DNA of 34,549 bases, from contig JANQPU010000362.1 in NCBI GenBank assembly GCA_028285315.1, positions 1 through 34,549 of the forward strand. The letters run 5' to 3'. Below, one piece after another: positions 3,828 through 30,173 of the stretch. Position 1 is the stretch's first letter. Every line of letters begins with the position of its first letter. A program made the position numbers and the translations under genes. Under the pieces are notes generated by a model, which saw only the letters and a program-made list of their open reading frames with translations, ran no database searches and had not been told where the DNA came from. Source of the stretch: Acaryochloris sp. IP29b_bin.176. Its GTDB lineage: Bacteria > Cyanobacteriota > Cyanobacteriia > Thermosynechococcales > Thermosynechococcaceae.

Positions 3828-4952
3828 ATGGCTGCTAAGACAAAAAAACAGTCTTCAGGAACCGTTGAACAACAGACTGCCATTCTCCGGCAACATGCTG
3901 AGCAGCAGTTTGCAGCAGAACTCGAAGAGCTTCGCAAAGCCGATACACGTCAACGTCCAGCGAATTGGCAGCTTTCTCCCTGGGCTGTCTCCACCTATTT
4001 ATTAGGTGGCACCTTAGAGAACGGATTTGAAGTCTCCGCAAAATATATTGGCAATCGGCGTTTAATGGAAATCGCTATTGCCACGCTGACCACCGATCGC
4101 GCCCTTTTACTGTACGGGGTTCCGGGTACGGCTAAGTCTTGGGTTTCGGAACATTTAGCGGCTGCGATCGCAGGAGATTCCACCCTCCTTATCCAAGGCA
4201 CCGCAGGCACCAGCGAAGATGCGATTCGGTATGGCTGGAACTATGCCAAGCTCCTAGCAGAAGGGCCATCCCTCGATGCGATCGTTCCCAGTCCACTGAT
4301 GCAGTCCATGCGCCAAGGCAAAATCACTCGAATTGAAGAACTAACCCGTATTCCTGCAGATGTGCAAGACACCTTAATTACCGTCCTGTCCGAGAAGACG
4401 TTACCCATTCCCGAACTTGGAGAAGAGATTCAGGCCACCCAAGGCTTTAATGTGATTGCCACCGCCAACAATCGGGATAAAGGCGTAAATGACCTGTCCA
4501 GCGCCCTGAAGCGTCGCTTTAATACGGTCATTCTGCCGTTACCAGACGATGCCGACTCTGAAGTCAAAATTGTGCAAGAACGGGTCCAAAACCTGAAAAC
4601 CGCCCTCGATCTCCCTGCCGAAGCACCAGCGCTAGCTGAAATTCGGCGTGTTGTTACCATTTTTAGGGAATTACGCAACGGCTTAACAGAAGACGGCAAA
4701 ACCAAACTCAAATCGCCCAGTGGCACCCTGAGCACGGCAGAAGCCATTTCCGTCGTCAATAGTGGCTTATCCCTGGCCGCCCATTTTGGTGATGGCTCAC
4801 TTCAGGCCCATGATCTTGTATCTAGCTTGGTGGGAGCCGTGGTCAAAGATCCCGTGCAAGATCAAGTGGTGTGGAAAGAATATCTTGAAACCGTGGTGAA
4901 AGAGCGGGACAACTGGAGTGACTTATACCGAGCCAGCCGCGACGTTCTTTAG
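3828..4952 (+). CDS. MoxR-type AAA+ ATPase
   Basis: A 374-residue AAA+ ATPase. Residues 1-50 are a charged, helical lead-in. The P-loop GVPGTAKS is at 97-104. A Walker B-like strand ends in ITRIEELTR, followed by a sensor-1 region, FNVIATANNRDKGVNDLSSALKRRF, that also contains the arginine finger typical of MoxR-like proteins. A helical lid domain follows. Such ATPases act as chaperones that remodel or insert metal cofactors, often with a von Willebrand A partner. No vWA gene is adjacent here, so the partner is probably elsewhere. The start ATG 3828 has no strong ribosome binding site. The gene converges with mutM, with only four bases between the two stop codons. Confidence 0.85.
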   Translation: MAAKTKKQSSGTVEQQTAILRQHAEQQFAAELEELRKADTRQRPANWQLSPWAVSTYLLGGTLENGFEVSAKYIGNRRLMEIAIATLTTDRALLLYGVPGTAKSWVSEHLAAAIAGDSTLLIQGTAGTSEDAIRYGWNYAKLLAEGPSLDAIVPSPLMQSMRQGKITRIEELTRIPADVQDTLITVLSEKTLPIPELGEEIQATQGFNVIATANNRDKGVNDLSSALKRRFNTVILPLPDDADSEVKIVQERVQNLKTALDLPAEAPALAEIRRVVTIFRELRNGLTEDGKTKLKSPSGTLSTAEAISVVNSGLSLAAHFGDGSLQAHDLVSSLVGAVVKDPVQDQVVWKEYLETVVKERDNWSDLYRASRDVL

Positions 4953-6282: not shown

Positions 6283-7452
6283 CTACCGATAAACCGGCAG
6301 CGTAAAGTGGAAGCAACTGCCATGATGAGGGGCAGAATCCACCCAAATCTCACCGTAATGGTTACCCACAATCCGCTTGCAGAGGGCTAGCCCCATCCCA
6401 TAACCCGCTTGATCTTGATCTCGGTCTAACCGATATTGATTGTCAAAAATGTATTGTTGTTTTTCCAAGGGGATTCCCAAGCCATTGTCGCAAATACTCA
6501 CCTGCACCTTTTGAGTGGTGCGATGCAAGATAGATAATTTAATCTCCCCACCCTCTGGAGTATATTTCATGGCGTTATCTAACAGGTTGAGAATCACCTG
6601 CTGCACCTGATCCACATCGGCATGGACATTGGGGATATCCGGAGGAATATCACTTTCTAAAACCTGAGACTTGGCCTTGAGCACGTTATGGACTCTGAGC
6701 GCAATTTCTTGACAGAGTCCACTTAAGTCCAGTTGCTTAGGATGAGTTTTGAGCGCAAGCTCACTCCCTTGAGAGGCTTCCAACAGATTTGTAATCATCC
6801 GCTCAATAATTTGGGTTTGGGCATGCGCATGTTTCGTCAAACGTTGGATCAGGGCAGGGGAAAGATCTTTAATGATCTCATTGTCTTCATCCCATTGCCC
6901 GTTCAGCGTCTCTAGGGCGATGGTTGCAGCCGTTAATGGATTGCGCAGATCATGAGCTAGCATGGCAATCATCCGATCTTTAAACCTGAGTTGATCTTGT
7001 AACGCCTCATTTTCTTGCCGCAACTGAAACATTTGATCGGAGAGCTGCATGAGTTGAGCAGCATCAGCAAAGGAGGTTGTATCTGTCGCCAAGTCCATCT
7101 GATCGTCAAGCAGGCTAGCAGATAAAGAATGTTGCCAATAGGGCCAGGATTCCTCTAGCTGAGCGACCAAGTTACTGCCTGCCAAAATATGCCGAGGTTC
7201 AGGTCGGATCTTGACTAAAGCGGGGGTGGCCACCAATTTGTAATGTTCTACTAAGTAAGGCTGTTCCGAAACTTCAACGACATGCAGCTCAAAGTCACAA
7301 TCGGGTTTGAGTGTATCGAGATATTGAGATATTTGATGAATCTGCTCTTTAGCTGTTGTGCGTTTGTCAACAAACAACAGCAGTTGTAGTGAAGCATCTG
7401 ACTTAATTACAGATTTCAGATGTTCAGTGGGGGTCTCGGAAGATGATCTCAT
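6283..7452 (-). CDS. sasA: Adaptive-response sensory histidine kinase SasA
   Basis: A 389-residue histidine kinase that reads the KaiC clock state and phosphorylates the response regulator RpaA in cyanobacteria. Residues 15-105 form the KaiB-like thioredoxin-fold sensor (LQLLLFVDKRT, then FELHVVEVSEQPYLVEHYK, then VATPALVKI). A coiled linker at about 130-160 precedes the HisKA box MLAHDLRNPLTA with phospho-acceptor His167. The HATPase domain shows the N box (LLDNAMKYTPEGG), G1 box (CDNGLGIP) and G2 box (GYGMGLALCKRI). The start is ATG 7452-7450. No kaiABC or rpaA gene is in the window, which is usual because these genes are generally unlinked. The gene is on the same strand as psaE, but 151 bases separate them. 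Confidence 0.95.
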   Translation of the reverse strand: MRSSSETPTEHLKSVIKSDASLQLLLFVDKRTTAKEQIHQISQYLDTLKPDCDFELHVVEVSEQPYLVEHYKLVATPALVKIRPEPRHILAGSNLVAQLEESWPYWQHSLSASLLDDQMDLATDTTSFADAAQLMQLSDQMFQLRQENEALQDQLRFKDRMIAMLAHDLRNPLTAATIALETLNGQWDEDNEIIKDLSPALIQRLTKHAHAQTQIIERMITNLLEASQGSELALKTHPKQLDLSGLCQEIALRVHNVLKAKSQVLESDIPPDIPNVHADVDQVQQVILNLLDNAMKYTPEGGEIKLSILHRTTQKVQVSICDNGLGIPLEKQQYIFDNQYRLDRDQDQAGYGMGLALCKRIVGNHYGEIWVDSAPHHGSCFHFTLPVYR

Positions 7453-11241: not shown

Positions 11242-13836
11242 TCACCCTGATTCGCTGGCCCCTTTATCAGCAGCCACCGTGGCAAAATATTGACGATACA
11301 AATCGCAGCGAGGTTGCGCCTCATTGCCAACCAACCGGATCAGTCCTAAGCTATGCAGCTTGAACAACACAGACGGCTCTAGGGAGATCGCCTGCTCAGA
11401 CGTGACGACGGAGATGAAAGCTTGAGCCAATTGGGCATGCTGTTGCAAATTCCACCAATGGCCCCTCAGGTGATCGCGGAATAGTCCTGCTTCGGTCGGT
11501 GCCGTTTCGAGCAGTTGCTCCACACTCATATCCCCCTTAGCCACGTGATACAAAGCCAACCGAATTAGATAGGGATGCCCCCCGATCAGGGTTTGAAGCT
11601 GGGAAATTTGGGCTTCATCCCAATCTAGGTTGTGCAGCTCCGCCAGTTGACTAATCTGGGCCAAGGAGAATTCGGGTAAGTCAATCGGTAGGCCGACATT
11701 AAAGGGGGACTGGTTGGTATTGAGGGGAATATAGACCTCCGTGGCATGAACCACAATCAGCCGTAGCTTTTGCCAGATCTCCTGATTTTTGGCTTCCTCA
11801 TGCCAGGCCCGTAACAGGCCAAAGAAGTCGCTGGCAATTTCAGGATATTCAAATACTCGATCGACTTCATCCAGAGCCAGGGTGAGTGGACCATCTAATT
11901 CAGGCAGAATATATTCTTCAAAATAAGCAGTGCAATTGTATTTACTGCCAAAAATATCGTCCCAAGTCTCGGCAATCCGGTTAGGCAAGCGCAATCGACG
12001 GCTGACGCTAGCACAGAGCCACTGCAACAGCTTATCTAAATCCGTAAACACCTTGCCGTCCGCCAGTTGCAGATTCAAGGACACCGTATTTAACCCTTGG
12101 CTGGAGGCTTCATGGAGGATGCGGGCCATCAGCGAGGTTTTGCCCATTTGCCGAGGGGCTTTGATCCGAATTAAGGAACCCGGTTGCACCACCGTTTCCG
12201 CACAGCGCAGTTCTATCGGTGGCCGCTCAATATAAAACGCAGATGCCACATTCACCTGCCCTTCCGGTAACTCTGGCTCAGCAACAGGTAAGGGTGGCGC
12301 ATCCGATCCCTGTTTAGGCGGCGGTACGGTCGGAAACGATCCAGAACTGCCTTGATCAGCCGTTTTGGTTAAGGAGTCACTGGCATCTAAGGCCGATAAA
12401 ATATCTTGAACCAAGTTGGGGGTATCACTGGCAGACCGCCAAATGCGCTGCTGTAGGCGATGGAGATAGCCTCGCAGTTCATAATTCAAGGAGCCATCCA
12501 TGGGCAAATCCACCCGAATGGGCACAATTTGCGGTCGCTGTTCTGCACGATTTTGATGAAGTGCTTTAACCGCTCGCACTTCCTGCAGCATCAGCTCGCT
12601 ATGGGCTGAGGCCCGCGACAACAGCAGAATATAAAAGTCACAGGCTTTGAGGGCATGATCAATATGCTGTGCCCAATTCTCTTTTAGCTCCAGGCTCTGG
12701 GTAGACATAAACGGCTGGTAACCCGCCCCTTTCACGGCTTCAAATAACTCCTTGGCCACCTGCAGCTCCGGTTCTCGGTTTAAAGCACTGATAAAGACCT
12801 GGCTAGTCACTTCCACAAAGGGTTGAGTGGCGCTCTCAGGATCGGCGGTGAGGGGCTCTGATCCTAGAGAGTTACTGGGGAAATCGGCAGGACGCGCCAC
12901 TTGCGGTGTCGTCTGATAGCTGCGTTCTCCGGCCGAACCCGGTTCACCTGCCCACAGGTTTTGCACGGGCGATCGCAACATCTTACCGACTTTTTTAAAC
13001 CATCCCGACGCAGGTTGGGCTTGGAGTTCTTTGAGAACATCTTCTGCGGATTGATACCGATATTGGAAGTGGTAGCGGACCATTTGCTGCAGCACATCCC
13101 CTAAGACTGGGCTCACCGGCACTTCTTCCTGCCAGTCAATCTCGCCTTGGGCCGTTTGGGTAAATTGGGTCGGATTTTTGCCAATAAAAGCCTCGATACC
13201 TATCATTCCTAAGGCATAGAGATCGCTATTGGCTCGGGGGCGGCCTTGGGCCTGTTCAGGAGCCATATAGCCAGGGGTGCCAATAGCAATTGTTCCTCCC
13301 ACAGGCAAGGGCTGATGGGGATCGCTGCTCAGTTCTTTGCGCAGCTGCTTGACAGCCCCAAAGTCGATTAAGACCAAACGACCATCCTGCTGCCGACGAA
13401 TAATATTTTCGGGTTTGATATCCCGGTGAATGACATTGAATTGGTTAATAAAGGTCAGGATGGACAGGATGTCCTGCAATAGTTGGGTGACCTGTTCTTC
13501 TGACCATCGACAGCCCTCTGGTAATTCTTTGCGCAGGAGGTGACCGGGGATATATTCTTGGACGAGATAAAACTCTTGTTTTTCTTCGAAGTAGGCTAGT
13601 AATCGTGGAATCTGATCGTGATTCCCCAGCTTCTCCAGCATGACGGCTTCTCGTTCAAAGAGAGACCGGGCTTTGGGCAGAAACTCAGGATCTCGTTTTG
13701 CTGGTTTGAGATGTTTGACCACACATTGAGGACGCTCAGGACGGTGAATATCCACAGCCAGATACGTCTGGCCAAAACTACCGCCGCCTAGAGTTTCTTG
13801 AACTTGATATCGTCCACCGAGGGTTCGACCGAGCAT
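11242..13836 (-). CDS. Ser/Thr protein kinase-TIR-AAA ATPase fusion
   Basis: An 864-residue cytoplasmic fusion. Residues 8-270 form a Hanks-type kinase with all key elements: glycine loop GGGSFG (17-22), Lys41, HRDIKPEN with catalytic Asp139, DFG 158-160 and MAPEQ 191-195. After a low-complexity linker, residues about 345-445 look like a TIR domain: SQVFIS, a GYQPFMST strand, WAQHIDHALKACDFYILLLS, then SELMLQEVRAVKAL, where Glu419 sits at the position of the family catalytic Glu, and IVPIRVDL. A second Pro-rich linker leads to an AAA_35-like ATPase with P-loop APRQMGKTS (560-568) and Walker B LALDEVDRV (653-661). The start is ATG 13836-13834. Whether the TIR domain degrades NAD or only mediates contacts cannot be read from sequence. 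The downstream gene carries a sibling ATPase domain. Confidence 0.9.
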   Translation of the reverse strand: MLGRTLGGRYQVQETLGGGSFGQTYLAVDIHRPERPQCVVKHLKPAKRDPEFLPKARSLFEREAVMLEKLGNHDQIPRLLAYFEEKQEFYLVQEYIPGHLLRKELPEGCRWSEEQVTQLLQDILSILTFINQFNVIHRDIKPENIIRRQQDGRLVLIDFGAVKQLRKELSSDPHQPLPVGGTIAIGTPGYMAPEQAQGRPRANSDLYALGMIGIEAFIGKNPTQFTQTAQGEIDWQEEVPVSPVLGDVLQQMVRYHFQYRYQSAEDVLKELQAQPASGWFKKVGKMLRSPVQNLWAGEPGSAGERSYQTTPQVARPADFPSNSLGSEPLTADPESATQPFVEVTSQVFISALNREPELQVAKELFEAVKGAGYQPFMSTQSLELKENWAQHIDHALKACDFYILLLSRASAHSELMLQEVRAVKALHQNRAEQRPQIVPIRVDLPMDGSLNYELRGYLHRLQQRIWRSASDTPNLVQDILSALDASDSLTKTADQGSSGSFPTVPPPKQGSDAPPLPVAEPELPEGQVNVASAFYIERPPIELRCAETVVQPGSLIRIKAPRQMGKTSLMARILHEASSQGLNTVSLNLQLADGKVFTDLDKLLQWLCASVSRRLRLPNRIAETWDDIFGSKYNCTAYFEEYILPELDGPLTLALDEVDRVFEYPEIASDFFGLLRAWHEEAKNQEIWQKLRLIVVHATEVYIPLNTNQSPFNVGLPIDLPEFSLAQISQLAELHNLDWDEAQISQLQTLIGGHPYLIRLALYHVAKGDMSVEQLLETAPTEAGLFRDHLRGHWWNLQQHAQLAQAFISVVTSEQAISLEPSVLFKLHSLGLIRLVGNEAQPRCDLYRQYFATVAADKGASESG

Positions 13837-17426: not shown

Positions 17427-17788
17427 TTGATCTGGTTTAACTGATCTGGCTCTTGTCCTCATGTTGGGTGACCCATTCAGTCACCAGGGCTAGAAAAGCC
17501 CATGTATATCAAGCCTCATAGTCGGCTAATAGTGATGGAAATCGGAATCATTCTGTCTATTAGCCTCTAGCTCTAGCATTGCCCCCATCTGCATAGGCCC
17601 AAAGATTTTGGTTAGGGCACATCTGGTTGCCAGCCTGGTTAAGTACCCATCCCACAACTCCCAAACGCATCATCTAGAACCCTGATTGTCCGAAAGGATT
17701 ATAACCGTTACGGCTTTGAGGGGGTTGAGCGACACCAGCAGATTAGAAAACGGTTGCAGTCTTGAAGGAAGATCTCCCAAATACAGAA
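17427..17788. other. Gene-poor intergenic stretch with two small hairpins
   Basis: About 360 bases lie between the convergent DUF1822 and SRPBCC genes. Two neighbouring stem-loops sit about 40 bases past the DUF1822 stop: GGTGAC/GTCACC (17467-17485, 7-base loop) and GGGCT/AGCCC (17487-17501, 5-base loop). Neither is followed by a T run, so they are weak terminator candidates. An 8-base direct repeat (TGATCTGG) occurs twice just after the stop. A minus-strand 37-codon open frame (17560-17673) is discussed as a low-interest finding. Confidence 0.4.
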
Positions 17789-20402: not shown

Positions 20403-23400
20403 TTAGATAGGAGCATAGTCTTGGATAGACAGGTCTGCCAGATCAACCGTAACCCCTCTCAAAATCATTAGAGTTTGCTCTGAATCAATCAAGGAGATGC
20501 GAGTATCTCCATCATCGGTCGTGGCACTAAGTTGACCTAAGGTTAACCCTCCAGCAAGACCTAAGGTATCCAGGTCAACATCAAAATCCAGAACTGTATC
20601 TAGACCTTGACCGATCTCGACGACGAACCAGTCCGCACCAGATCCACCGGATAGCCAATCTGCCCCTTGACCCCCGACTAAGGTGTCGTCCCCGGCACCG
20701 CCGAAGAGCTTATCGGCTCCTGGACCACCTGTTAGCAAGTCGTTATCGGCACCACCATACAGAGTGTCTTTGCCACGGCCCCCCATGAGGGTGTCATTGC
20801 CAGCATCGCCTAAGAGCCGATCTCTGCCCCGATTACCCGCTATCTGATCGTCGCCGCCACGGCTAAATAAGATATCTCGGCCTCGCAAGCCTTTGATATC
20901 ATCTGCTTCAGCCGTTCCCCGGAGGATATCCCGACGGTTGGTGCCCACAATTTCATTGAAGGTAGGCATCACCATATCAATGACCATATCATCTCTAAAA
21001 TCGAGATTCTGAATTCGGGTATCTTCAGCGGGGTCTGTTTCTGAGGCGGCAAAAGCAGGAGTGGCTAGATCTGCATCAGCAGGGAAGTTAGCGGCAAGAT
21101 ACTCGGCTAGGGCATCTTGCTCTGTGCCTGGATCTGCAAACGTAGCAACACCCGGATCGGTCAGCACATCGGGTAAGTCAATCCGATTGGCGTCTGGCCC
21201 GGTGGGGAAGGGATAACCGTCGCCACCATCCGCCAAAAAGTTAAGGGTGACAATGCGGAAGGTGCGGCTGGCATCCCCCACAATCTCTCCGTTTTGGACA
21301 ACAACATCGATGTCATTGCCATTCTCATCGGTAATGACTAAGGACTGCACTCGATCACCCACAGGCGCATCAGGGTCAAAACTGAACTGCACGCCAGCGA
21401 CTTGGGGGAACTGACCAGGAGTGGCCCCATCGGCAATCGCCGCCACACTATGCTCAATCACCTCTAGCAGTTGATCGGCGGTCAATGTCAGCAGCGTCAG
21501 GCTATTATTAAAGCGCAGGGAGTTGTCAATGTCGAGCTGAGAGATTTCGCCTTCCGCCTTACCAGAGACAGGGTTAGCCTGCGGAGGCAACTCATTACCA
21601 TTAGCATCAATTTCACCAATAGGAGCACGGATGCCACCTCCGTTTTTGAGGGAAACAACAACCGTATCGTCAAAGGTTTTTGCAGCTGCTAAGTTGGCAT
21701 CTGCCGTCAGGTTGCCTAGATTAGTTTCTTCGGTACGGACACTTTCGCGACGACCATCGATAAATACTTCCGAAAGCCCGAAAACATTGCCATCCTGGGT
21801 AGCTACCACATCAGAGACGGCATCGGTGAGCTGCTGGACATTGGTGGCTTTGTCTGAGGATGCGATCGCATCCCCTATATCCGTCGTGCCATAGACAGTA
21901 TTGACCACTTCATCAGTAGTGGCATAAGCCCCACTGACCGCTGGGTCAATGCTGTTGGTAATGATGTTGCCATCGGCATCAAACTCCAGCACCAAGCGAC
22001 CCAGATAGCTGTACTCCCCATCTGTACTGACAACCAATACAGGGTTACCACTGGCATCCGTGGTTTCAAAGGGATAGTCCCCTGCGGCCACATCTCCCGG
22101 TCGAAGGACATCGGTTGAGTCCGCTAGGAGGGTATCTGAGCCCCCCGCAATAATCACATCAACGCCATCTAAGAGACCCGCCAGTTCTTGCTCTAAGGCA
22201 ATCTGCTGCAAGTGAGATACCAAGATGATTTTGTTAATGCCCAGGTTGCGGAGACGATCCACTTCTGGCTGTAGGGCTTCGGCTAAGGCTGCCATGTCAT
22301 TGGTTTGGGGACCAATGACCGTTGTCCCCGTGGGAGAGGAAATACTTTCGAGTAACTGCGTCGTGGCCCCAATTACCCCAATCTGTTCGCCTCCTTCTTC
22401 AATAATGGTGGACGGGGCAATCTTGGGGGTCGTTGTTCCAGCCAGAGACTCCTCTGGACCCGTTCGGAACGCGGTATTCACTAAAATATCGTTGGTGAAT
22501 ACATCACTTAAATCTGCATCACCGGAGAAATCGAGATTGGCCGACAGATAGGGGAATAAGGCACCTACCGAGCGATCATCTCCCAGACCTGGATCGCGGA
22601 AGTCGGGTTCGATAATGCTTTCAAACGTATCAGATCCTAAATCAAACTCATGGTTGCCAACCGCCGAGGCATCAAAGCCAATCAAGTTCATGATTGAGAT
22701 ATCGACGCGACCGCCCCCTTCTCGCAATCCGGCATAGAAGTCGTCAACGGCATCGCCGTCCAGATCGGCGGGTAAACCAAACAGGTCATTGTAAAGATCA
22801 TTGAAGAGGCCGCTATCACGAAACGCGGTGCGATCACCCGCCGCATTGAAGAAGGGACCGGCCAGATAGTTATCACCTGCCGACAGGATCACCGTGTTCT
22901 CAAACTCATCTTCAAAGAAATCGGTCAGTGCCGCAAAGTTAGGAGCGCGGCCAATGGCATCTACCCCACCCTCTAAATCAGAGGCATGGAGAATTTGCAA
23001 TGTGAAGGTATCAGAGCTACTACCGCCCCCATTATCATCTTCTAGGGTGAATCGACCGACGATAGGCTCATGATCGCTGGCGACCACCTGATCTGCAAAA
23101 AGAGCCCGGCTATCATCTCGGACAAAGTCATTGTTGACATGAACAATATCGAATTCTGCCCCCTCTGCCAGCGAATTCGTGGCGAACTGATGATCCAGCA
23201 CTTGGGCATTGCCATCAAAAATGAAGGTGTAGGCATCATCCGCAGCTACTGCCTGAGGGACCAAACTCGTTAAGACCTGCTCATCCCCCACACCTGGCAA
23301 TATTTCCTGTAAGTCGTTGGTGGTGTCAAAGGTATTCAGATCGCCAGCCACAATGATATTGGCGGCTGGATCTTCAGCCAATTGAGCATCAACAAAATCG

Positions 23401-26400
23401 TTAATAGCTTGGGCTTGGGCTTCCCGTTCCTCCTCTGCCGCTTGGATAAAGGGTTGGGTGGCTCCAAAAATTGGCGAGGACCCAAACCGCGACGAGAAGT
23501 GATTGTTAATCACCTGTACGGTTTGACCCTTGAACTCGAAATTCGCGGCTAAGGGGGTCCGACTGCCCGCAAAGGCATCTGGATTGCTAGCTCCCGCTGC
23601 AGCCAGGACCTCTGGGGTGAGCAATTGCAGCGAGCTATCGTCTATCGCCACTCGGTCGGGGTTGAACAAAAAGGCATTGCGAATGTTACCGCCGGGTTGA
23701 CCGCCAAAGGCACCATCTTCAGGATCGATGGTGCGGAATTCATAGGTGGGTCCGCCTGCGGCTGCGATCGCATCCACGAGTATTTGCAACGTTCCATCTG
23801 CAGCAGTCGTGCCATCATCTACACTGCCAGAGTTATCCTGAATCTCTTGCAGCGCAATGATATCAGGGGCTTGGAGATTATTAACGATCTGAGTGGCTAA
23901 GCGTTCAAACTGGCCGTTGGCGACATCAGCCGAGCCATCTGCATCATTCGGATCCAGGTTGAGAACGTTGTAGCTCGCCACCGTTAGTTGAGTCTCAGTG
24001 CCCACTAGAGTCGTTGTTTCTGGCTCTAATCCACTCGGGGTGGGGGTAAATGCCTCTGTTACATTCACCTCAAAATTGCCGAAGCTATAGCCAACAACAC
24101 CTGTGACATCTCCCAGTTGATCGCCCACGTTGAGGCCAGGAGTATCAAAGCCATCTGGGAGGAGAGCGGGGTCAAATTGGAGTTGGATGCGCTCTGGGTT
24201 TTGATCGCCCGTGTTGTTAGGGCCAGAGACCAGATTCAGCGTGCCTCGGTTCGTGAGGGCATCCGTAGGAGACACATTGGCTCCTTGATTCGGAAGGGTA
24301 AAGGCTTCTGCCGAGAATGGGTTGAAGATCCGGGTCGGCGAGATGGCTACTGCATCTTCCACGGTGACTCGCATGCCTTCTAGACTTTCGAAGAAGTCGA
24401 TGGCATCGTTTTCTGGATCGTACTCACCTGGATCCATTTGCAGGTTAATGGGCAACTCATCCGCACTAATGACCGTGTTGTTGGAGGGTAGTCGACCGTT
24501 CTCACCGAGCAAGGTGGCGGTAGGCAGCGCATTACCGCTAGATAAGACCTCAACCGCGTCCAAACTCAGTTGCGTAATCGATAAGTTATTGGTGGAAGCC
24601 CCTCCAGGAATAAACTCTGACACTTGACCCGTCAGTTCCAGTTCATCCCCAATACTGACGGTGGGGTCACTTCCCGTAAACACAAAAATGCCGTCGGAAG
24701 TGGCGTCATTCTCATCGCCAGTGGCATCTTGGAGATAAAACCCATTGAAATCAACGGCTGTAACAATTCCCGTGGTCGTTACTGTCAATCCATTAAAGGC
24801 AGACAGATGACCTTCACCCTGAATGTCGTAGATCTTGACTTCAGGCGTAAATTCATAAACAGCAACGGTCTCACTTACCTCATTACTGATCACCAATAAG
24901 CTATTGCCGTTGGGACTGTCATCCGCAGCAATAAAGGTCAAACCCTCCGGGGCTATATCGGCATCATCGCGGATATATTGCAAGAATTCGGGGGCTGTAG
25001 GGTTAGTGACGTCATAGACCAGAACCCCGCCACCAGCTCGCTCAAGACCAATAAAGGCATAGGTGCGGTTCCCTACCTTGCCCACGGCTACGGCTTCGGG
25101 CTCAGCGCCTTTATTATCGGATCGACTATCAAATTCGGAAGGGTCTCCGTCATCGGCGTTGAATAAATCTGGAGCCAGTTCAGCGGTAATTTTGGCAATC
25201 TGATCGCCACTATCGAAGACTTGGTTGCCCACCTCATCCCAAATGCTGAAGGAGCGACCCCCATAGGAGAACAGCTGATCAAAGTCGCCATCTCCATCAA
25301 TATCACCGTCGATGGTGGAGACTTGCAGCCGCCCAAGCTGATCGTCTTGTTGCAAAGTCGCTGCATCAGGGAAGGCGGTTGGGTCTAGGGTCAAATCGGC
25401 GATGCGCTCGTCTTCACTGCGGGCATCCCCTTCGTTTGCCGTGATGTAGTACGTTTGGCCGTTGGCTTCAAAGGATGCGATCGCATCTGGTTGATACAAC
25501 CCAAACACCGGATGATTTTGCAGATTGATACCCCCATCGCGATCGCTTGGATCCAGCGTATTTCCCTCACCAAATTGAATAAAGCCCAGCGTGATTGGCG
25601 TTGGATCAGGATTTTGCAGCACATTTCCATCTAAGGGAATATCGCCTTCTGCCAGCCCAAAGTCATTGTCATTGAGGACCACCAAGGTGCCATCAGGAAG
25701 TAATGCCAAGCCTTCGGGCTTATCGCCAGCGAGGTAGCCAAGAGACGGTAAATTCGTGGTCTTAATTTTATTAACGGGTTGAAGTCCAGCAGCCAATAAC
25801 GAGTCAGCCGTTTGCTGCTCCAGCGTGCCCTCTTCAAAGATGCCAATTTCATCCTTATCCAGTGTTAGCAGGTTAGTTGCAGCGGAGATGTCAATTTCAA
25901 AAATAAACTTCTTGGCCGTCTCGCCAACCGCAGAATCCCGTTCAATGACATAGAATTTGCCATCGCCAGCAAACACAGCATCGCCGATCTTGTCCACTCT
26001 GCCTCCTGATCTCACGGCAGGGTCTTCCAAGAGATAAACGTATTCAGCAACGGGATTACCTGTTGCCGTATCAATCCCTAGGATTCGAATGACATCAGAA
26101 TTGTCAGATGCTGCGCGATCAGGATTGGCAAGGGGCGTTTGGATAAAGGCATAAAGAATTCCCGCCTCATCATCCAAGGCTACGGCTTCAAATCCCCGAT
26201 TGCGGCGACGGTTGATATATTCAGCAGGTAAGGTTTCCGTGCCAAAATTAACTTCTGTCTCGTCCTCATTATCGTCCCCACTGCTGGCTTGGGCTGCGGT
26301 CCCTTCCGGCACATACCGATTCAACAGTACGCCCTCCGGTGAGAACTGGTAAATCGCAGGCCGATACTCATCCACCATCCAGAAATTGCCATTGGCATCC

Positions 26401-28163
26401 TTCAAAATGCCTTCAAAATCGCCTCCCAAGGGATCAAAGGTCAGCGGGTTGCCAAATAAATCAACGGGTTGCTCATCAACGGCTTCGTTACTGATGTTGG
26501 AGCGTCCCGTGATCGGTGTGCCGTCATCTTGGGTGAGGAAAATCTGAGCGGCAATGCTGACACTCGTCAGATCAGGGGTAACTTCTAATTTGACAATCCG
26601 AGCTTGGTAATCCGGCAAGGCAAAGGGCCGCTCATTGATGTCGTCTCCATCCACATCTAAAGTCTCGGGATTAGGGCCGCGATCAGGAATGGTGTAAAAG
26701 ATGAGATTGCCTGAATCGGGGTCGGTACCCCCGAACCACAGTCCCGATAAACCGCCTAGCGGAATCTCCTGCCCTGCTGGTGTTGTGCCTAGACTGGGTA
26801 AGTCTTCTAAGGTCAGTTGGGTGAGTTGGGCAGGCCCACGGCTAAAATCTTTAGCCCCTAGAGGTAAGATGTCTGTCACGGCCGCCGTTGCTATATCCAC
26901 GACGGCAAACGCATTATTCTCCTGCAAGGTCACGAAAGCCGTTGTCCCATCGGTTGAAACGGAGATAAATTCGGGCTCGACATCTTCAGAGGTCGTTTTA
27001 TCGGGAAAAATACGAACACCTTTGGCCCTGAGTTCAGCTTCGCGTCCATCGAATGCGGTGAAATCAGCCGTTTGTACGGACAGATTATCGAATCCTGCAG
27101 ACAAATCAATAATGCTGATCGATCCAGCAGGATCAATATCATCCTCGGGTTCACCCTCATTCGCGACCAACACTTTGGTACCGTCCGGGGTGAAGGTAAG
27201 CATATCTGGTAAGGCACCCACTTCGATTTCACCTAGGATCTCACCCTCACTATTGAGAAACAAAACGGTGCCATTATTGGTGGCCGGATCGGCCTCAATA
27301 GCTACTGCAATAATGCCGTTACTAATGGCAACGCTATTGGCTCCCGCTCCGAAGCTGGATAAATCGATGGAAGTTAAGGCTTCTGGCTGAGTCGGATCGC
27401 TCAGGTCCACCACCTGTAATTCGGGTTTACCGGATACTAAAAAGAGTTTCTGAGAGGCGGCATCAAAGGCATTAATTTCAGCACCGTTATCCAGGGTAAT
27501 CCCTCCAATTTTGCTCAAGGGAACATCGGAACTGCCAGTGCCAGGATCACGATCACCGATTGTGAAGGGAGCTGTGGGCAAAGTTAGTGCTGAATTGTCT
27601 CCTGTCCAATTACTGGCATCGCTAATGGCTGCTAGGAGTTCGGTGGGAGTCCCGGTTACAGGACCACTGTAAACTGCGTTATCTACCTCTTGGGTAGGTC
27701 CAGCACCAGCCCCAACAGCAACGGCAGAAGTACCCACCACAAGATCGGGGGGCAGTGCCGATGTATTTGAAGAGGTCGCATCGGCTTGGAATTCCGTGCT
27801 GTTTGTTAATAGGGCAAACAGGAATGTGGGGTTTGTGGAGAGGCCCTGAAAGGCAATAATTTGATCCCCGCTGCTAGAAAGGGAAAACCCACTGGTTCCT
27901 ACCCCGGCATCATTATCAGCCGTGAAGTCCACATTATTATTAACGAAATTGATGACGGTCCCCGCCGTCAGGGCAGAGGGTGCAGTGTATTTCACGGCTC
28001 CTTCATTAGCTCGGAAACTGCCATCGCTGAGTACACCGCTATCGGTGAAGCGAATTTCAGTGCCCGCATCGATATCAACGAGCAACACAAAACTAAAGTC
28101 ATCAGGATTATCGGTGTTAACTCCGATAATTGCTATGTCACCAGCAGAGAGGGAAGTAGCCAT
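20403..28163 (-). CDS. Giant secreted multidomain phosphatase/nuclease with RTX repeats
   Basis: About 2586 residues, cysteine-free on reading through, with no Sec signal. Domains in order: a lamin-tail-like N-terminus (1-200); a choice-of-anchor I beta-propeller (about 220-1105) interrupted at about 443-866 by a phytase-like esterase domain ([40 protein letters not shown]); an OB-like strand region (about 1110-1200); an ExeM/NucH-type endonuclease (about 1390-1710) with LQEIQDN, INNHFSS, AGDLNTF and ASDHEP; a 5'-nucleotidase-like metallophosphatase (about 1725-2400) with SAGDNY, VGNHEFD and NGGGIRAP; then nine RTX nonapeptides (about 2435-2515) and a type I secretion-like C-terminus. It probably releases phosphate from extracellular nucleic acids and esters. 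ATG 28163 has AGGA six bases upstream; ATG 28169 is an alternative. Confidence 0.92.
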
Positions 28164-28190
28164 GAGCATTCCTAAACAAACAGTAAAACC

Positions 28191-28210
28191 AATCTGAAAG
28201 TTTTCAGATT
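28191..28210. repeat. 20-bp palindrome in the leader of the giant phosphatase gene
   Basis: AATCTGAAA and TTTCAGATT (9-bp arms) flank a two-base centre, 28 bases upstream of the start codon. It could be an operator or a leader hairpin affecting translation. Confidence 0.5.
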
Positions 28211-28294
28211 TTCAGCAGAATAAACCTAAATATCAGCAAATTTTTGACTGAATTTATTTAGACTCAGAATAGTGATGAGTAGATTGAGGAATTA

Positions 28295-28339
28295 GATTCT
28301 TCGCTAACTGTAAATTCTGCTATCCCCCAACGAAGAATC
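28295..28339. repeat. Widely spaced 9-bp inverted repeat
   Basis: GATTCTTCG (28295-28303) and CGAAGAATC (28331-28339) are exact reverse complements, 27 bases apart, in the leader region between the Pho-box-like array and the giant gene. The arms are 36 bp apart start to start. Confidence 0.4.
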
Positions 28340-28432
28340 AAACAAGTGAGAAGCACTTCCAGTTATTTGTCAAGCAGTATTAAAAACGACAAACACTGCT
28401 TCAGAAGCACCGAATGTAAGACTCGCAGAGGG

Positions 28433-28495
28433 ATGTAAAGGCTAGCTAAACTATAGTTTAAGAAGGCTATTAGTTTTGGTTAAGCTTTGATTATG
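28433..28495 (-). promoter_or_regulatory. Pho-box-like array (six 8-bp units, 11-bp period)
   Basis: Read on the minus strand, the units are CATAATCA, CTTAACCA, CTAATAGC, CTTAAACT, GTTTAGCT and CTTTACAT, each followed by a three-base spacer. Against the cyanobacterial Pho box PyTTAAPyPy(T/A) they match 7, 8, 3, 7, 5 and 6 of 8 positions. The unit size, spacer and repetition match the known PhoB/SphR site architecture. It lies about 270 bases upstream of a secreted phosphatase gene on the same strand, the expected target. A weak -10-like TACATT sits at 28418-28413. Confidence 0.6.
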
Positions 28496-29092
28496 TCACT
28501 AAAAAGTCAATTTATTTAATAACTGAATTTACGCATTACAGAATATCTAAGTAATGATCAACACATAAAAAACTTGGATAAGCCGCAGTTTAAACATTAG
28601 AAACGAATAATCTTTTGGTTCATTATGATTAGATGATATTCAGGCTATTTATGAGTAAATAAATTTTAGGCAGCGATATTCACTTAATTCATATCAGATA
28701 TTTCTTGCCGAGAAAAGATATATCAATATTACTAAATATAATGAAATTCTTGTCTTTGTTGTAGTTTTTTTGACCTAAATTTTTGACCTAGAATACTGCA
28801 TGAACTTAGATATATATGTCCTATTCTTACTGCAAAAAATGAATGCAATCTATAAATCAATAAATATTAAGATTAAAGCTGTTTTCCCCATTTAGCACCG
28901 TATTCAAAGACATCAGGAAGCTAATAAAATATAAAAATCTTGCTGACATGCGAGCTAATATGCTTGCGTAGTCGTTTAATAGATATGATTGTCGAATTTA
29001 TTCTCTGTTGTTCAGTTCATCTATTTAAGAAGAAGATGATTTGGTGTTATGTTCTGTATGAACTGATACATTCTTAAATGCCAAATTGGACC
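28496..29092. other. AT-rich gene-free stretch between divergent transcription units
   Basis: About 600 bases of strongly AT-rich sequence hold no open frame of note, no tRNA-like cloverleaf and no recognisable repeat family. It separates the Pho-box-like array of the phosphatase gene from the sbtA promoter region. Remnants of genes are not recognisable. A small RNA cannot be excluded by reading. Confidence 0.5.
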
Positions 29093-29105
29093 GTTTTTTG
29101 ACTCA

Positions 29106-29133
29106 TTGACATCCGGTCGTGGTCCACGATAAA
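29106..29133 (+). promoter_or_regulatory. Candidate sbtAB promoter with palindromic operator in the spacer
   Basis: TTGACA (29106-29111) is followed after 16 bases by GATAAA (29128-29133). The spacer contains the palindrome TCGTGG-T-CCACGA (29117-29129), which overlaps the -10 edge. The start codon of sbtA is about 70 bases downstream. Placement of a dyad between -35 and -10 is typical of repressor or MerR-like control. Bicarbonate transporters of this type are induced by low CO2 in other cyanobacteria, but the dyad is not obviously a LysR-type site. Confidence 0.45.
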
Positions 29134-29204
29134 CAAGGGTTTGTCAGAGAAATAATTTCTACATAGTTTTTTGCGTGCTTTTTGCTGCACCTGGAGGGAT
29201 CTTT

Positions 29205-30173
29205 ATGGACGTCAGCCTAATCGTATCCAATATTCTGAATCCACCTGTACTGTTCTTTTTCTTGGGTATGACAGCTGTTTTCGTCCAGTCTGACTTAGAA
29301 ATACCAGCCCCGATCCCGAAATTATTCTCGCTTTACCTGCTGTTTGCGATCGGCTTTAAGGGGGGAGTTGAACTCGTTAAAAGTGGAATTACCCAAGATG
29401 TGATGCTAACCCTAGCCGCTTCGGTGCTGATGGCCTGTTTTGTGCCGCTGTACACGTTCTTTATTCTCAAAATTAAGCTGGGGAATTATGATGCAGCTGC
29501 GATCGCAGCCACGTATGGCTCCATCAGTGCCGTGACCTTCATTACCGCCAGTGCTTTCTTAACTGAGCTGGAGATTGATTTTGATGGCTTTATGGTAGCC
29601 GCGCTTGCCCTGATGGAATCGCCTGCCATTATCGTCGGCTTGATTTTAGTCAACCTGTTTGCTGCTAATCGAGAACAAGACCTTGAATGGCCTGAAGTCT
29701 TAAAAGAAGCCTTTCTCAACAGTTCCGTCTTTCTACTCGTCGGCAGCTTGCTGATTGGCGTCTTAACCGGAGAGCGTGGTTGGGAAGTTCTAGAACCTTT
29801 TACCCAAGGCTTGTTCTATGGTGTGCTCACCTTTTTCTTACTCGATATGGGGCTAGTGGCCGCTCGCAGAATTAAAGACTTGCAAAAAACCGGCGTTTTT
29901 CTAGTTGGGTTTGCCATACTGATACCAATAGTCAACGCTGGCATCGGTTTAGTCATCGCCAAACTCATTGGGATGTCTGTTGGCAATGCGCTCTTATTCT
30001 CAGTGCTGTGCGCCAGTGCGTCCTACATTGCCGTCCCAGCAGCGATGCGCATGACCGTTCCCGAAGCCAATCCGAGCCTCTATGTCTCAACCGCTTTGGC
30101 AGTGACCTTTCCGTTCAATATCATTGTGGGAATCCCGCTATACCTTGCTGGAATCGAGTTTTTATGGAGTTAA
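29205..30173 (+). CDS. sbtA: Sodium-dependent bicarbonate transporter SbtA
   Basis: A 322-residue inner-membrane protein of the SbtA (formerly DUF897) family, which imports HCO3- with Na+ for the carbon-concentrating mechanism. About ten hydrophobic helices are visible in two related halves. Conserved-looking segments include LYLLFAIGFKGGVEL, ATYGSISAVTFITA and, in the second half, FSVLCASASYIAVPAAMRMTVPEANPSLYVSTALAVTFPFN. The cytoplasmic loop between the halves is short (NREQDLEWPEVLKEA), so the protein is more compact than the roughly 370-residue Synechocystis form. ATG 29205 has GGAGGG six bases upstream and is a clear start. The SbtB-like gene follows four bases after the stop, in an arrangement normal for this pair. 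Confidence 0.92.
   Translation: MDVSLIVSNILNPPVLFFFLGMTAVFVQSDLEIPAPIPKLFSLYLLFAIGFKGGVELVKSGITQDVMLTLAASVLMACFVPLYTFFILKIKLGNYDAAAIAATYGSISAVTFITASAFLTELEIDFDGFMVAALALMESPAIIVGLILVNLFAANREQDLEWPEVLKEAFLNSSVFLLVGSLLIGVLTGERGWEVLEPFTQGLFYGVLTFFLLDMGLVAARRIKDLQKTGVFLVGFAILIPIVNAGIGLVIAKLIGMSVGNALLFSVLCASASYIAVPAAMRMTVPEANPSLYVSTALAVTFPFNIIVGIPLYLAGIEFLWS

Follow-up and report, generated by a model that had tools for sequence, protein, structure and literature searches.

A six-unit Pho-box-like array upstream of a giant phosphatase-type gene of Acaryochloris: a probable SphR operator read as two plus three boxes

Does the row of short repeats upstream of the gene for a giant, phosphatase-like protein in Acaryochloris sp. 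IP29b_bin.176 act as a phosphate-responsive operator, and is it this gene that the repeats serve? They occupy positions 28433–28495 on the minus strand of contig JANQPU010000362.1 (assembly GCA_028285315.1), whose 34,549 nucleotides, analysed as a whole, are called the window below; the source genome is a 5.35-Mb draft in 438 contigs, among which the window is contig C82. As argued here, the array is very probably an operator for SphR, a PhoB-type regulator, in the promoter of a giant secreted phosphatase/nuclease gene that would be activated at low phosphate, a reading built on sequence comparison.

Reread on the minus strand, which is that of the phosphatase gene, the six 8-mers follow one another at 11 bp from start to start without exception, confirming the exact register claimed in the earlier note. 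Against the consensus YTTAAYYW given in PMC13226834, unit 1 (CATAATCA, 28495–28488) matches at 7 of 8 positions, unit 2 (CTTAACCA, 28484–28477) at 8, unit 3 (CTAATAGC, 28473–28466) at 3, unit 4 (CTTAAACT, 28462–28455) at 7, unit 5 (GTTTAGCT, 28451–28444) at 5, and unit 6 (CTTTACAT, 28440–28433) at 6, the same counts as first reported. A weight matrix was built from Table 1 in Su et al. 2007 (PMC1906773), using 25 of its 30 rows; it gives units 1 to 6 scores of 5.3, 9.4, −5.8, 9.2, 3.9, and 5.2 bits, respectively, and the array a total of 27.2 bits. A second matrix, made from 16 pst/sphX sites with no phosphatase or nuclease site included, gives 27.3 bits and again ranks the array first. The in-register units flanking the array on its two sides score −0.9 and −9.7 bits, which places its borders where the earlier note had drawn them.

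The scores divide the array into five Pho-box-like units (1, 2, 4, 5, and 6) and one degenerate unit. Units 1 and 2 (CATAATCA, CTTAACCA; 28477–28495, minus strand) form a pair of 14.7 bits, and units 4 to 6 (CTTAAACT, GTTTAGCT, CTTTACAT; 28433–28462, minus strand) an unbroken triple with 3-bp linkers. This triple is the best of the array, at 18.2 bits, and lies inside the leave-one-out range of the known and predicted Pho-box sites (6.3–24.1 bits). Unit 3 (28466–28473, minus strand) stands in register between them, yet it is no Pho box.

Orthologous arrays precede the orthologous gene in the three other Acaryochloris-type genomes whose promoters were read (3/3), scoring 26.7 (G002), 29.2 (G001), and 31.6 bits (G003) with the register unchanged. 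In G002, the giant protein itself is 92% identical. The array of G003 shares only 62% of its bases with that of the window, and its boxes are kept despite the many base changes: units 2 and 4 read CTTAACCT and CTTAAACT, and units 5 and 6 read TTTTAGCT and TTTTACGT. The pair of units 1 and 2 is kept in G001 and G002, and unit 1 is weaker (2.0 bits) in G003. The array is 83% identical among three genomes and 57% identical among all four, compared with 40% and 21% for the 164 bp on its 5′ side and 76% and 48% for the leader on its 3′ side; since, in three genomes, the leader at 76% comes close to the array at 83%, the footprint is sharp on the 5′ side only, a point against the Pho reading. Unit 3 scores poorly in all four genomes (−5.8 bits in the window, −5.8 in G002, −3.3 in G001, and 0.3 in G003), and for this reason the operator is better read, from the aligned sequences, as a pair and a triple of boxes with an in-register spacer unit between them. 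Of the original claim of six Pho boxes, five thus stand, but the third falls away. The sub-arrays of units 1–2 and 4–6 would take separate groups of SphR around the degenerate unit, and the earlier suggestion of two overlapping dimer-binding sites is a guess.

Could such an array be a chance or relic product of AT-rich sequence, without function? It lies in a 1005-bp, AT-rich intergenic region, GC content is 33% over positions 28001–29000, and TTAA-rich boxes arise easily in sequence of this kind. Against this explanation, none of 2000 dinucleotide shuffles of the region, scored on both strands, reached the six-unit score of 27.2 bits. In the same shuffles, the best five units were likewise never equalled, the best four were reached by 3, the best triple (18.2 bits) by 1, and the best pair by 25. 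Among 443 other upstream regions, drawn from 20 contigs of the source genome and 20 stretches of G002 picked regardless of content, the six-unit maximum is 12.8 bits, although two of them attain the triple score of the array. These computations make the array rare and bear out the earlier judgement that its occurrence by chance is unlikely; together with the boxes and register kept in four genomes, they leave the chance or relic explanation extremely improbable.

Scans at the scale of genomes agree. Within the sample taken from the source genome (G000; 45 sources, 558,996 of 5,351,368 bases, with pst and response-regulator contigs over-represented), the array is the top six-unit site, and the second-ranked site, at 22.4 bits on contig C70, precedes another giant phosphatase gene. 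Among six-unit sites in the samples of G000 and G002, none except those of orthologues lies closer to the array than 4 bits. A five-unit pattern with at most 3 mismatches, run over 29 genomes, yielded 13 matches in 8 genomes; the four orthologous arrays match with 0, 0, 0, and 1 mismatches, and the remaining nine with 2–3. The seven genomes of the same genus (G000–G006) gave 10 matches with the forward pattern and 0 with a reversed control, compared with 3 and 5 in the other 22 genomes, so that the enrichment is specific to this genus. Phosphatase-type genes lie downstream of four of the nine non-orthologous matches: the C70 phosphatase gene of G000, a homologue of the giant protein in G014, a 5′-nucleotidase-type gene in G006, and, in G001, a PhoX-RTX gene, separated from the match by 1.65 kb that include a small ORF. 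Of the remaining five, two stand at contig ends, one at a repeated sequence of G036, one at an esterase gene, and one at a glycosyltransferase gene. Many random sites scoring as high as the array, an outcome that the earlier note had named as refuting a Pho operator, were found neither by these wide pattern scans nor by those with the matrix.

Triples are less telling. By triple score, the array ranks fourth in the G000 sample, behind sites on C209 (24.0 bits), at a pstS gene on C183 (22.8 bits, 73 bp from the start), and on C40 (20.4 bits). Because triples of 20–24 bits also occur at three loci with no phosphate link (L076, L102 at an MFS gene, and L150), a triple alone is weak evidence, and we dropped triples as sole evidence. 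At L076 (C40, 7619–7892), an acyl-CoA ligase-type gene and a pyruvate formate lyase-like gene, neither with a known phosphate link, flank Pho-box-like sites on both strands, the 20.4-bit triple among them. At L150 (C209), triples at 3891 and 5967, of 24.0 bits (the strongest of the sample) and 16.9 bits, point away from the adjoining minus-strand genes (MFS, NTP transferase, and lactate permease).

The array lies upstream of, and is oriented towards, a gene with phytase-like, nuclease, and 5′-nucleotidase parts (20403–28169, minus strand). Pfam finds choice_anch_I, Phytase-like, Exo_endo_phos, 5_nucleotid_C, and RTX calcium-binding repeats in its 2588-aa product, and NCBIfam adds matches to ExeM/NucH-type DNases and 5′-nucleotidases, these two below their cut-offs. 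Given this domain content, "giant secreted phosphatase" is a fair name for the predicted protein, with the activity inferred. At about residues 1820–1830, in the metallophosphoesterase part, the protein reads HASDLEGG where 5′-nucleotidases have a D-x-H motif.

Two genes share the intergenic region, and the array might serve the divergent one, an SbtA-type Na+/bicarbonate transporter gene (Sbt_1) at 29175–30173 on the plus strand, or both. The common region is what speaks for this; the repeats, however, read towards the phosphatase gene, the sbtA start is some 680 bp away from them, and no triple of the opposite strand scores above 7.5 bits. The SbtA-type gene is therefore not a likely target, and service to it, alone or jointly, has scarcely any probability. 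Further off in the window are a SasA-like histidine kinase with a KaiB domain (6283–7452) and a kinase/TIR/AAA_35 protein (11242–13836) adjoining a WD40/AAA_35 protein.

The phosphatase gene, in turn, belongs to a family with which such boxes are associated. In other cyanobacterial genera, a Pho-box triple of at least 10 bits occurs within 500 bp before 12 of 15 homologues, compared with 2 of 98 control genes on the same stretches (Mann–Whitney p = 3e-7); ORFs with less than 200 bp upstream and ORFs matching through RTX repeats only were left out of this comparison. Near full-length orthologues with 57–58% identity also occur in alphaproteobacteria of the Kiloniellaceae/Rhodovibrionaceae kind (L002, L004, L005, and L006), which suggests that the giant-protein gene has been transferred. 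No Pho boxes were found before the two of these four orthologues that were scored (L002 and L004, with L005 and L006 left out). With boxes before the cyanobacterial homologues and none before these two, the box follows the cyanobacterial setting and not the coding sequence. A match on a contig titled Bacteroidales (L008) covers residues 5–193 only, at 68% identity, and mis-binning is possible. The source genome holds a second giant phosphatase gene (L055; C70, 732–6365, minus strand), whose 1877-aa product combines Alk_phosphatase, GDPD, Phytase-like, and RTX domains; 565 bp before this gene lies a six-unit Pho-box-like array of its own (6931–6993, minus strand, 22.4 bits).

The pstS promoters of the genus serve as working controls. 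From 54 PBP_like_2 matches, 36 were scored as loci, and dropping 5 without a called ORF left 31. Ten of these 31 upstream regions carry a triple of at least 13 bits, and the other 21 score below 9. All ten high-scoring sites lie 67–97 bp before PstS-type genes of 334–351 aa; the matrix that scores the array highly also recovers pstS promoters in this genus. On contig C183 of the source genome (L056, 6825–9729), a MotA/ExbB-type gene, two small ORFs, and a second pstS stand in a row, with triples of 16.2 bits 84 bp before the ExbB gene and 14.1 bits 67 bp before pstS; the locus is possibly a TonB-linked, phosphate-controlled uptake cluster. On C365 (L155, 2807–3889), a 13.5-bit triple lies 138 bp before the gene of a phosphonate-binding ABC transporter.

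Compared with these controls, the array is far from its gene. It ends 263 bp from the listed ATG at 28169, so that the earlier wording "directly upstream" holds as to the side of the gene but not as to adjacency. We count this distance against the Pho reading, as it is far beyond the 67–97 bp of the pstS boxes of the genus. Nevertheless, 263 bp falls inside the span of −23 to −403 covered by the sites that Su et al. 2007 list in Table 1 (PMC1906773).

Which regulator would bind? The candidate that we favour is encoded at 17444–18202 on contig C79. It is the second-best match to the PhoB model in the source genome and stands before a kinase without a HAMP domain, the top NCBIfam matches of which, PnpS and PhoR, partly cover the N-terminal half too. 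A regulator of this type occurs in 27 of the 29 genomes searched, as a single copy in 26, and in all 22 of the well-assembled ones; its presence and conservation are plain from the searches. Its recognition-helix region reads VDVHIRWLREK, and E. coli PhoB has R at the position of the W. Judged by these sequence features, the C79 pair is a good candidate for SphR/SphS; because all matches of regulator and kinase fall below the curated NCBIfam cut-offs, it is a candidate and not a proof. The best PhoB-model match, at 4014–4679 on C262, was rejected as SphR, the C79 regulator being preferred since the best family of the C262 protein is NblR (288 bits, cut-off 300). A regulator on C307 was also set aside; its kinase is best matched by BaeS and has a HAMP domain.

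Another member of the OmpR/PhoB family that uses 11-bp direct repeats might occupy the array in place of SphR. The source genome holds about 16 near full-length matches to the PhoB model, and binding to direct repeats is a class trait of PhoB-type regulators. The unit sequences, however, fit the SphR matrix, including the one from pst/sphX sites alone, and these boxes recur in pstS promoters of the genus, so that we consider use by a different regulator decidedly improbable. The HLR1 element of RpaB has two 8-mers 2 bp apart; the spacing of the array does not fit, and an HLR1 element was rejected.

Binding by SphR might also repress the gene or leave its transcription unaffected. Boxes near a −10 element can repress, and there is a precedent in Synechocystis, where urtA is repressed by SphR and has its Pho boxes near −10 (PMC13226834). 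The target, however, is of a phosphate-scavenging enzyme type, and cyanobacterial homologues widely have such boxes; repression or a silent site is accordingly very improbable. We therefore return to activation by SphR, a Pho-type reading to which the phylogenetic footprints, the homologues, the pst controls, and the single-copy SphR-like regulator lend support at the level of sequence. SphR binding, activation rather than repression, and the place of transcription start are what we infer for this promoter. Under low phosphate, the SphS-like kinase would phosphorylate the SphR-like regulator (the candidates on C79), which would then bind the 11-bp repeats head-to-tail, filling boxes 1–2 and 4–6, and recruit RNA polymerase to transcribe the giant gene. 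The product would be a single RTX-secreted polypeptide with phytase-like, endonuclease-like, and 5′-nucleotidase-like domains, the presumable role of which is to free phosphate from organic phosphorus and nucleic acids. Activated Synechocystis promoters are described with two to four Pho-box motifs each, overlapping the −35 element or located further upstream (PMC13226834), and an exchange in any of three TTAA cores was reported to weaken or abolish binding (PMC11126600).

The least ordinary, less expected part of the promoter is a gene-specific hairpin between the array and the start codon (GATTCTTCGTTGG...AGCGAAGAATC, 28295–28339, minus strand). As RNA, the form of the window (GATTCTTCGTTGGGGGA...AGCGAAGAATC, 28339–28295) can pair over 13 bp. 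The 17-base left arm has one exact copy per genome in G000–G003 and, of the other 54 among the 58 genomes searched, a one-mismatch copy in a single one. RNA folding z-scores are −1.5 in the window (63 nt with flanks), −4.2 in G002, and −5.7 in G003, and as the arms are almost invariant, covariation says little. Rfam returned no listed family over 28100–29250, only a sub-threshold snoRNA match (E 0.56) that we take as chance. The hairpin possibly forms a structure in the leader or marks a protein site. Across the four genomes compared, no conserved sigma-70-type −10 element stands where one would be expected after unit 6, which counts against the Pho reading; as the hexamers 3′ of the array differ among them, a conserved sigma-70 promoter there was rejected and no promoter is claimed. 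The two-plus-three array split by a non-box unit, its distance from the start codon, and the hairpin unique to this gene form the basis of a further, tentative and on balance unlikely proposal, namely two-layer control, in which a cooperative, high-threshold SphR switch is combined with a structured leader that tunes mRNA stability or translation. If so, the switch would turn on only in deep phosphate starvation, and the leader would act on the 7.8-kb mRNA of a secreted enzyme that is very costly to make.

Our literature search on Acaryochloris SphR and phosphatases and on six tandem cyanobacterial Pho boxes found no title or abstract reporting this array. On sequence evidence, the Pho regulon of Acaryochloris-type cyanobacteria gains a fused phosphatase/nuclease/nucleotidase-like gene, and the known picture of Pho control is left unchanged. 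With its length, degenerate unit, distance, and leader hairpin, the array offers a clean case in which to ask how the number and layout of boxes determine the phosphate threshold at which SphR targets respond.

Among known systems, the phoA-nucH operon of Synechocystis PCC 6803 likewise has tandem 8-mers of the CTTAACCT type with 3-bp linkers, and in both cases the boxes precede phosphatase and extracellular nuclease functions. Unlike the array, with five boxes and one degenerate unit 263 bp from the ATG, phoA-nucH is described with four tandem boxes at −156 (PMC1906773), and its functions are divided between two genes, whereas here phosphatase-like and NucH-like domains are joined in one 2588-aa protein. 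The Pho boxes of cyanobacterial pstS/sphX genes, including those of the Acaryochloris type, share the 8-mers and the 11-bp register of the array, which is longer and further out than their mainly three boxes at 67–97 bp from the start codon. The PHO operators of Streptomyces PhoP also consist of 11-bp direct repeats of variable number and quality, termed "complex operators", but with another consensus (GTTCACC) and another regulator (PMC4415409). By its sequence, the array is thus most likely an ordinary cyanobacterial Pho operator, longer than those of Synechocystis, for which two to four motifs are described.
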